From Sagittula stellata E-37 (GTDB lineage: Bacteria; Pseudomonadota; Alphaproteobacteria; Rhodobacterales; Rhodobacteraceae), in contig NZ_CP155729.1 of NCBI RefSeq assembly GCF_039724765.1, positions 1,807,501-1,871,500 of the forward strand: a stretch of DNA of 64,000 nt, written 5' to 3'. Below, one piece after another: positions 142-4,344 of this stretch. The position numbers and the translations under genes were made by a program. Under the pieces are notes generated by a model, which worked only from the letters and a program-made list of their open reading frames with translations, had not been told where the DNA came from and did not search any database. Positions within the stretch are counted from its first letter, which is position 1. Each line of letters begins with the position of its first letter.

Positions 142-663
142 ATGGCTGACGGAACCTTCGCAGTATTGATGCTGGTGCTCGGTCTGACCGACATGGGCAT
201 GAACCACTGCGGTACGGCCAACGGATGCCTCGGGACGTCGCCTGCGACGCCGCGGCTGATGATCTCGGCCGGCGAGGTTTTGGAACGACAGGCACAGCCT
301 GCGTCGGAGGTCTACCTTCGCTACGATCTGCCCCACAAACGCGGGCCGTTCGGAGAGGCCATCGGTCTCTCGGTTGGCGAAGAAGGCGAAACCTGGATCG
401 GGTTTGGCCAGACCTACACGGTGAACTTCGGAAACTCTCCGCTGTTTGCCGAACTGCACGCGATGCCTGGTCTCTACTTCGATAACGGCGGATACGACCT
501 CGGCGGACCGATAGAGTTCCGTTCCGGGATCGAGCTGGGATACGAAAACCGGAAGGGCTGGCGCTTCGGCCTCAGCTACGATCACCGCTCGAATGCGGGG
601 ATCTACGACAACAACCCCGGGATCGAGACAGTTGCGTTCCACGTGAGCATTCCAACCAGATAG
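142..663 (+). CDS. PagL-like lipid A 3-O-deacylase (acyloxyacyl hydrolase family) inside 23S rRNA
   Basis: A 173-codon ORF lies wholly within the helix-25 IVS and ends just before the 3' arm of the terminal stem. The ATG at 142 has AGGGAG eight bases upstream. The C-terminal half has the hallmark of outer-membrane PagL/acyloxyacyl hydrolases: an MPGLY strand, an EFRSGIELGY segment, then HRSNAGIYDNNPGIE. H148, S150 and E162 sit where the family's catalytic His, Ser and Glu are found. PagL removes the 3-O-linked acyl chain of lipid A in the outer membrane. The first 30 residues include a short hydrophobic run (FAVLMLVLGL) but no convincing cleaved signal peptide. Only the rRNA promoter is available for transcription. 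Translation is unproven. IVS proteins known elsewhere are small four-helix proteins, not this family. Confidence 0.75.
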   Translation: MADGTFAVLMLVLGLTDMGMNHCGTANGCLGTSPATPRLMISAGEVLERQAQPASEVYLRYDLPHKRGPFGEAIGLSVGEEGETWIGFGQTYTVNFGNSPLFAELHAMPGLYFDNGGYDLGGPIEFRSGIELGYENRKGWRFGLSYDHRSNAGIYDNNPGIETVAFHVSIPTR

Positions 664-3195: not shown

Positions 3196-3314
3196 GGTTT
3201 GGTGGTCATAGCGTGAGCAAAACACCCGGATCCATTCCGAACCCGGCCGTTAAGTGCCACCGCGCCAATGGTACTGCGTCTCAAGACGTGGGAGAGTAGG
3301 TCACCGCCAAACCT
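3196..3314 (+). rRNA. rrf: 5S ribosomal RNA
   Basis: The ends form the standard terminal helix (GGTTTGGTGG near 3197 with CCGCCAAACC near 3304-3313). The conserved loop CCCGGATCCATTCCGAACCC follows. It lies about 225 nt downstream of the 23S end, the normal operon order. Ends are estimated to within two or three bases. No tRNA-fMet follows, although many Rhodobacteraceae rrn operons have one there. Confidence 0.95.
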
Positions 3315-3505: not shown

Positions 3506-4344
3506 GGTCAGGACTCGTTCTCTCTCAAAGCCAGAAGATCACGGTCGCAGCGAGTGCGATCGCTGAGAAGAAGGTCTTTGGGCATCGGTCATAACGGGTC
3601 GCCACCCGTCTCCAATCCTTGAGCCTGCCGAACATGATCTCGATCCGGTTGCGACGCTTGTACCTGCGCTTGTCGTACGGGACGGGCGTCTTCCGTTTCG
3701 TCCGGCCCGGGATGCAAGGGCGTATCTTCTTGTCTTGCAAGGCTTCTCTGAACCAGTCGGCATCGTAGCCGCGATCTCCGAGCAGCCATTTCACGTCTGG
3801 CAGCCCGCCGACCAGCGCACGCGCCCCGATGTAGTCGCTGACGGGGCCGGCAGTCAGGAACAGGTCGATGGGCCGGCCATGGCTGTCGCAGACGGCGTGC
3901 AACTTCGTGTTCATGCCTCCCTTCGTCCGGCCAATCAGCCGTCCACGCCCCCCTTTTTCACGCCCAGGCTGGACGCCGTGCGATGGGCCTTCAGATGAGT
4001 TGCGTCGATCATCACGGTCGTCTCCTCACCATGCTCGCCCGCCAGCCCGGCCATGATCCGGGCGAAGACGCCTCTATCGCTCCACCGCTTCCAGCGGTTG
4101 TAGAGTGTCTTGTGCGGGCCGTATTCCCTTGGCGCATCTCGCCACCGCAATCCATTGCGATTGATAAAGATAATACCGCTCAGAACGCGCCGGTCATCAA
4201 CCCGGGGCTTGCCGTGCGACTTGGGGAAGTAAGGCTCCAGACGCGCCATCTGCGCATCGCTCAACCAGTAGAGATCAGACATGTTCACCGCTCGTTTTCG
4301 AACGGTGAATCACGCTCGCTCAACCAAATCAATGGGTCCTGAAC
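3506..4344 (-). mobile_element. IS5-family insertion sequence (IS427-like), apparently intact
   Basis: The element is 839 bp. Imperfect terminal inverted repeats start GGTCAGGAC at the left and GTTCAGGAC (read inward) at the right. CTAG flanks both ends (3502-3505 and 4345-4348) as a 4-bp target duplication typical of the IS427 group. It encodes one transposase on the minus strand in two frames. It sits 123 bp after the rrn terminator, between the rrn operon and the signalling island. Confidence 0.9.
3525..4288 (-). CDS. IS5-family DDE transposase, made by -1 frameshift
   Basis: The first frame (4288 to 3935) encodes the N-terminal DUF4096-type domain and the first catalytic Asp in MIDATHLKAHR. 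The second frame (to 3525) carries the second Asp in LLGDRGYDADWF and the catalytic Glu in RNRIEIMFGRLKD. The frames overlap. A slippery run of five A then six G (minus strand, 3948-3958) lies where a -1 shift restores the family sequence GRGRLIGRTKGGMNTKLHAV. With the shift the DDE protein is full length for an IS427-group transposase, so the element may be active. The frameshift is inferred from sequence. Confidence 0.88.

Follow-up and report, generated by a model that had tools for sequence, protein, structure and literature searches.

Introduction

Intervening sequences in 23S rRNA genes replace the loop of helix 9, 25 or 45. Those of the S23 or 23S_rRNA_IVP type, known from Coxiella, Leptospira and Brucella, are hairpin-loop inserts with complementary flanks and an inner ORF (PMC4990558; PMC11270868), and RNase III excises such 23S inserts in other bacteria (PMC4990558; PMC8708148). 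The Coxiella protein S23p is reported to be expendable, degenerating and not made in vivo (PMC4990558). In CPR bacteria, the ORFs of rRNA inserts encode endonucleases and the 23S IVP, and 274 of the 278 ORFs with known domains in CPR 23S insertions were endonucleases (PMC11270868). A regulatory arrangement of a different kind has been described for T4 gene e and the intron-borne I-TevI gene, whose long transcripts are silent because pairing hides the Shine-Dalgarno (SD) sequence or the start codon, and translatable RNA is made from a promoter located within that helix, in its 5′ strand (PMC3014915).

Here, we describe a 23S rRNA insert that shares the hairpin-loop position, the complementary flanks and the inner ORF with the S23/IVP inserts, but differs from them in that its cargo is a predicted outer-membrane enzyme instead of a four-helix IVP, and in that this ORF, which has free-standing homologues, evolves under purifying selection. 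The enzyme family is that of PagL, the lipid A 3-O-deacylase of Pseudomonas (2ERV). A PagL gene in 23S rRNA was reported in none of the literature matches listed, in a search outside of which most subscription journals lay.

Results

A PagL-family gene in a helix-25 insert

The window, as we call the whole stretch of DNA that was analysed, comprises 64,000 nt of the Sagittula stellata E-37 genome (contig NZ_CP155729.1, positions 1,807,501 to 1,871,500 of the forward strand). It opens within an rRNA operon with the following features:

1–2969, + strand: 23S rRNA gene interrupted by the insert, its 5′ part lying before the window (RF02541, 2201 bits)
83–102, + strand: 5′ arm of the terminal stem of the insert, GACTGGACTCTAATGACAAT, pairing with the 3′ arm
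128–133, + strand: Shine-Dalgarno sequence AGGGAG, read from the sequence
142–663, + strand: pagL-family ORF of 173 aa with a predicted N-terminal helix (residues 5–22) followed by an eight-stranded barrel (PF09411, AlphaFold2, fold match to 2erv)
666–685, + strand: 3′ arm of the terminal stem, pairing with the 5′ arm
3198–3312, + strand: 5S rRNA gene (RF00001, 86.3 bits)

The single RF02541 match extends to either side of the ORF and is interrupted once, between model positions 583 and 584, by an insertion of about 595 nt, placed by E. coli numbering in the loop of helix 25; the insert replaces a helix loop as other 23S intervening sequences do, at a site different from helix 45, which holds the Coxiella element. 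The 681 bases containing the insert are present in two copies, at 100% identity, in a genome with two 23S genes. In the second operon, the order is 16S, tRNA-Ala, tRNA-Ile, 23S, 5S, tRNA-Met, and the 23S gene gave a full-length match of 2582 bits.

Other identities of the insert were considered and rejected. At the gathering threshold, Rfam found LSU and 5S rRNA only and no group I or II intron RNA in the window, which speaks against a self-splicing intron; the ORF has no endonuclease domain in Pfam, which speaks against a homing endonuclease; and PF09411 was its sole Pfam match at E values up to 10, so that an S23/23S_rRNA_IVP four-helix protein was discarded as well. A search of NCBIfam with the protein returned no family. 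The insert thus resembles the CPR insertions with homing endonuclease genes in that a protein gene lies in an rRNA gene and only some hosts carry it, and differs from them in that no intron family or endonuclease domain was matched.

The ORF is complete, with 173 codons, an ATG start and AGGGAG 8 nt upstream. An antisense open frame of 190 aa at 642–70, without Pfam match, makes ORF length alone unconvincing as evidence of a gene. The match to the PagL family (PF09411) has an E value of 3.2e-16 and 60.1 bits against a curated cut-off of 23, and the same family was matched in all 19 relatives scanned (at E 0.001). In a gapless alignment (profile E 8.7e-5), H148, S150 and E162 fall on residues 126, 128 and 140 of the solved PagL structure 2erv, the active-site His, Ser and Glu of PagL; together with N158 they were invariant in all 103 distinct proteins compared (34/34 embedded in 23S rRNA and 69/69 free-standing, as defined below). 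The AlphaFold2 model (pLDDT 93, pTM 0.87) is an eight-stranded outer-membrane barrel, as in PagL, and its fold match is 2erv, at 20% identity. The likeness to Pseudomonas PagL thus lies in the predicted barrel, the aligned His/Ser/Glu and the family match, and the differences are the low identity over the fold match, the location in 23S rRNA, and a conserved N-terminal helix without basic residues and with two nearly invariant cysteines. We predict that the protein would insert into the outer membrane and remove the 3-O-acyl chain from lipid A. The initial annotation, made from the letters of the window alone, had proposed a PagL-like ORF with its own SD and with H148, S150 and E162 as PagL residues, placed in a helix-25 insert with complementary flanks and rRNA on both sides; all of these points hold, including the family match by which it was to be checked.

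The N-terminus of the family, M(A)DGTFAVL..GLTDMG.NHCG..GCL (window 142–230 and relatives), is free of basic residues ahead of its hydrophobic helix, and the two cysteines occur in 34/34 embedded and 67/69 free-standing proteins; more distant PagLs, by contrast, have ordinary-looking signal peptides. Some further observations concern the surrounding operon. After the 5S gene of the window, at 3525–4288, two frames matching DDE_Tnp_1 and DUF4096 make up a transposase of the IS4/5 type, and the tRNA-Met that follows directly after the 5S of the other operon was not found there. The sequence CTCAAGTAGCGAAGCGGTAG at 1390–1409 is apparently part of an extra hairpin in the 23S gene of the window. 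Besides both 23S genes, the genome has it at two other sites, one of them with 2 mismatches; in another genome (G250), it lies within the leader of the helix-25 insert and in three further places. It is present in 5 of the 9 genomes searched and is a small, dispersed hairpin repeat that enters rRNA inserts too.

The insert and its gene occur together in many genera

With one genome scanned per species, 136 relatives were obtained, of which 80 were taken; with 32 further loci the set comprised 112 loci, 46 of them with 23S sequence within 400 nt on both sides (embedded) and 66 without (free-standing; duplicates included in both counts). After the later addition of 20 stretches with weaker relatives, with identical proteins counted once and seven distant PagL-like proteins (L146–L152) excluded from both the protein tree and the counts, 34 distinct embedded and 69 distinct free-standing proteins remained after filtering. 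The arrangement of the window, which the initial annotation had suggested seeking in related rRNA genes, recurs in other assemblies with 33 further distinct proteins. Embedded copies were found in Maliponia, Thalassococcus, Puniceibacterium, Cognatishimia, Phaeobacter sp. J2-8, Aquicoccus, Roseivivax, Marinovum, Primorskyibacter, Salipiger abyssi, Rhodosalinus, Poseidonocella, Thalassovita taeanensis, Roseovarius, Pelagivirga and Pseudooceanicola batsensis. A locus labelled Enemella evansiae (Actinomycetota; L036) has a roseobacter-like 23S with the insert and likely stems from a mislabelled or contaminated assembly. Some PagL-like match was present in 77 of the 295 genomes of the family.

The two arms of the terminal stem pair at 16–19 of 20 positions in each of the 34 distinct embedded loci, and the insert thus has the complementary ends of 23S intervening sequences. 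Two positions show compensatory changes: the first is A-T in 18 loci, T-A in 5 and unpaired in 11, the second C-G in 27, T-A in 2 (both Phaeobacter J2-8), A-T in 1 and unpaired in 4; one further position is mismatched in all 34. When the partners of the arms were permuted, ignoring relatedness, the observed pairing was reached in 0 of 2000 trials. RNase III would be expected to cut this stem, remove the insert and leave the 23S rRNA in two pieces. A free-standing pagL of Pelagimonas (L041, 4001–5216) is convergent with a gene for RNase III (assigned by Pfam), the enzyme expected to cut the stem of the embedded form, and two other Pelagimonas loci (L045, L058) have the same neighbour, judged from the appearance of its translation.

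A scan with the arm patterns, independent of the protein, found 15 sites of the 5′ arm in 13 of the 295 genomes and 0 in a reversed control, and all 15 sit directly before a full-length pagL-family gene. The 3′ arm pattern gave 18 sites in 16 genomes, namely the same 15, two sites preceded by the end of pagL (G025, G272) and one with an unreadable, masked insert (G070). An insert with these arms and without the gene was found at none of the 15 5′-arm and 17 readable 3′-arm sites. The 5′ arms equalled the 23S genes in number in all seven genomes counted (2/2 in G000 and G261, 1/1 in G141, G278, G009, G173 and G250), a comparison limited to genomes with readable 5′ arms, in whose draft assemblies further copies may be hidden; two more genomes (G272, G070) have one 3′ arm and one 23S gene each. 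The 12 genomes without an embedded copy and with readable 23S (eight with a free-standing copy and four without a family match) had the short ordinary helix-25 hairpin at all 18 readable loci; this probing covered 30 genomes, 18 of which gave no 23S match, the gene probably missing from their draft assemblies. Draft assemblies often break at or collapse rRNA genes, and an assembly artefact or a dead rRNA operon might be suspected. The probability of this is negligible in view of the match between inserts and 23S genes in seven genomes, including one that consists of one contig with a single 23S (G141), of the many independent assemblies, and of the full-length 23S of the second Sagittula operon; an assembly error, which the initial annotation had named as a possible objection, is also at odds with the double occurrence of the insert in a genome with two 23S genes.

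Selection acts on the embedded gene

Embedded pairs had a median dN/dS of 0.255 (92 of 561 pairs, those with dS 0.05–1.5) and free-standing pairs of 0.357 (696 pairs), as estimated by a simple counting method with dS near saturation and with pairs that are not independent. Values near 1, which would have told against the conservation of the frame assumed at the outset, are thus not what relatives show. In the pair with the lowest dN/dS shown (0.026), the embedded copies L100 and L107, dS was 0.92 and dN 0.024, and 66 of the 78 differences lie at third codon positions. Embedded frames ran for 167–178 codons to the first stop in 48/48 loci (duplicates included); since loci found via the protein could hardly show decay, the 15/15 5′-arm sites weigh more. 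These substitution patterns indicate that selection acts on the PagL-family protein while its gene resides in rRNA. It is therefore very improbable that the insert is a neutral or selfish passenger with an ORF that is silent when embedded, as might be expected from the decay of other IVS ORFs and from S23p of Coxiella, reported as absent in vivo and expendable (PMC4990558): not only the low embedded dN/dS and the invariant catalytic residues argue against it, but also the arms, none of which was found without the gene or its end (15/15 5′-arm sites; 17/18 3′-arm sites, one being unreadable).

Repeated movement between rRNA and other sites

Embedded and free-standing rows interleave in the protein tree, with 17 changes of location compared with a shuffled mean of about 29, and at least 4 changes are forced by strongly supported branches. 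A single clade of embedded proteins was rejected (p-AU 1.3e-6, in a test that omitted 15 long-branched free-standing rows). The 23S tree, too, has embedded and empty alleles interspersed (9 changes, 4 forced; the short empty allele L117 and the repeat copies L127–L132 left out). Furthermore, 10 of the 49 named free-standing proteins are encoded within about 2 kb of the 3′ end of an rrn operon, marked by 5S in nine cases and by tRNA-Met alone in one (L037); four of the ten are from Marivita, and eight lie downstream on the strand of the operon. From the interleaved trees and the proximity of these copies to rrn 3′ ends, it follows, as far as sequence comparison can tell, that the gene moved repeatedly, staying beside an operon in several lineages. 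In Roseovarius albus (L099), a free-standing copy is placed within a supported clade with 11 embedded ones and still has TTGACTGGACTC upstream. The near-identical arms favour one capture with many exits, and this is what the data suggest, although re-entry may have occurred as well. A plasmid-borne source was rejected, all six plasmid records being under 60% identity. Salipiger mucosus has two slightly different free-standing copies on different scaffolds (L083, L085).

A promoter-like motif and a predicted mask over the start site

Three further elements lie between the 5′ arm and the start codon or overlap them:

86–111, + strand: promoter-like motif TGGAC-N17-CCAT (boxes at 86–90 and 108–111), shared with a part of the free-standing copies and of presumed promoter function
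106–112, + strand: anti-start arm GGCCATG, predicted to pair with CATGGCT at 141–147, which holds the start codon (fold of 103–170)
115–133, + strand: inner hairpin containing the SD, 115–122 pairing with 126–133 (leader folds)

TGGAC occurs within 120 nt upstream of the gene in 34/34 embedded copies, where it is part of the stem, and in 35/69 free-standing copies, the other 34 being without it. The exact CCAT at spacing 17 is present in 11/34 embedded rows and in 17 of the 35 free-standing rows having TGGAC, and at other spacings of 8–29 nt in 3 embedded (all at 18) and 3 free-standing rows, leaving 20/34 embedded rows without exact CCAT at spacings 8–29. The −10-like box departs widely from the usual consensus; genome-wide, CTGGAC-N17-CCAT gave 20 matches versus 8 in a reversed control, with no clear promoter class. 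Because free-standing copies have no stem to preserve the motif, a promoter is the simplest reading of its sequence.

In the window, the AUG has a predicted unpaired probability of 0.00, and of 0.003 in the insert RNA 84–690; the fold of the leader at 103–170 is modest (z −1.56, 14 of 200 shuffles being as good). Leaders of embedded copies, taken from the 5′ arm to the start, had a median fold z of −2.71, with 22/34 below −2 and 12/34 not, compared with a median of −0.15 and 0/34 below −2 for free-standing leaders at the same offset (p 1.2e-11); this comparison and that of accessibility used 34 of the 69 free-standing rows, those without a suitably placed TGGAC having been left out. With dinucleotide shuffles of the leader alone, which kept all 69 free-standing rows (45-nt leader where TGGAC was unsuitable), z fell below −2 in 17/34 embedded versus 2/69 free-standing rows (p 6e-14). 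These p values ignore relatedness; strongly supported branches gave 4 independent pairs, in which the hairpin went with embedding in 2.1–2.4 and against it in 0.0 on average, not significant, as four pairs are too few. Coding control windows differed between the groups in one of four cases (p 0.49, 0.015, 0.61, 0.61).

The predicted start accessibility was 0.10 or less in 16/34 embedded and 3/34 free-standing copies (L035, L080, L081). In Roseovarius-type embedded copies it is mainly the SD that is paired, and no mask over SD or start is predicted for L100 and L107. The anti-start arm tracks changes around the start codon, with GGCCATG..CATGGCT in the window locus (L001), GGCCATC..GATGGCT in L033, GGCCATT..AATGGCC in L084 and CCGTTCATCT..AGATGGACGG in L031. 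An SD-like 4-mer is present in 26/34 embedded leaders, versus 1–5/34 in controls 25–45 nt further upstream; controls at 50 and 55 nt gave 19 and 26/34, where the searched interval reaches the 23S word GGAG. An RNA starting 17 nt further in, roughly the start expected from the putative promoter, showed, in the predictions for embedded copies, a rise of the median accessibility from 0.10 to 0.54 for the AUG and from 0.24 to 0.42 for the SD, and starts at 0.10 or less fell from 16 to 3 of 34; the same shift changed the free-standing values from 0.42 to 0.58 (AUG), from 0.50 to 0.50 (SD) and from 3 to 2 of 34 masked starts. According to these fold models, many embedded and few free-standing copies have a mask over SD or start, which is neither confined to the embedded state nor universal in it.

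The hairpin might instead serve rRNA folding or removal of the insert, with no part in translation control. It accompanies rRNA embedding, adjoins the terminal stem and does not mask SD or start in every copy, as this explanation would allow; we nevertheless hold it to be rather unlikely, considering that the hairpin mostly covers SD and start, that the anti-start arm varies yet still pairs in the four loci given above, and that three of the four coding windows showed no group difference.

The initial annotation had the enzyme gene driven by the rRNA promoter, linking envelope remodelling to growth rate. On such a growth-coupled scheme, the excised insert would be the mRNA, with one pagL message per 23S made. 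ORF and SD fill the insert, 12/34 embedded loci have their TGA stop codon fused to the 3′ arm, so that the excised RNA would hold a complete message, and L100 and L107 have no predicted mask. Against this stand the predicted pairing of the start codon in the insert RNA of the window, the prevalence of masks in embedded and their rarity in free-standing copies, and the excised IVS RNA of Coxiella, which is rapidly degraded (PMC4990558). The claim of the initial annotation is not supported, in view of the masking of SD or start predicted for most embedded copies and of the promoter-like motif that these share with many free-standing ones. Growth coupling is thus improbable as a general account and possible above all in copies without a mask.

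Discussion

As SD or start is predicted to be masked in the rRNA-initiated transcript of most embedded copies, the protein is likely made from a promoter of its own, buried in the insert. We therefore favour, with some confidence, the reading that the helix-25 insert of many roseobacters holds an intact pagL-family gene with a hairpin that silences the rRNA-initiated transcript and with an internal promoter, a view that draws on sequence conservation and fold models. In most copies, the leader hairpin would keep the pre-rRNA from being translated, and the enzyme would be translated mainly from a shorter RNA starting at the internal TGGAC-N17-CCAT promoter; that RNA would begin past the anti-start arm and so could not form the mask. 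By analogy with T4 gene e and I-TevI, which are protected from read-through, the gene would be insulated from heavy rrn transcription. The likeness consists in a long transcript that masks SD or start and in a promoter within the masking helix, in its 5′ strand (both predicted here; PMC3014915), and a start masked in the long RNA and open in the short one is predicted for the window and for most embedded copies, not for all; the difference is that the long transcript would here be the pre-rRNA. More tentatively, and with rather less confidence, we consider that the 23S gene may double as a regulated enzyme locus, in which the 5′ strand of the rRNA-processing stem also forms part of the promoter, the mask silences read-through and leaves the enzyme under its own promoter, and the gene shuttles between rRNA and ordinary chromosomal sites, gaining or losing the mask.

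A 23S insert with an ORF is of a known kind; a selected enzyme as cargo, its shuttling and a mask of the embedded state are apparently new, at least to us. The known ORFs of rRNA inserts mostly encode endonucleases or a small protein of obscure role that is perhaps never made. Here, the rRNA genes of many genera hold the gene of a conserved envelope enzyme, which in the genomes counted is present in all 23S copies; from the predicted folds, most embedded copies seem to be insulated against rRNA transcription. Such genes could be missed by annotation that drops ORFs overlapping rRNA. The arrangement makes it testable how a protein gene can reside within an rRNA gene without flooding the cell with its message, why bacteria put up with an interruption of their 23S rRNA, and how genes get into rRNA and out of it again.
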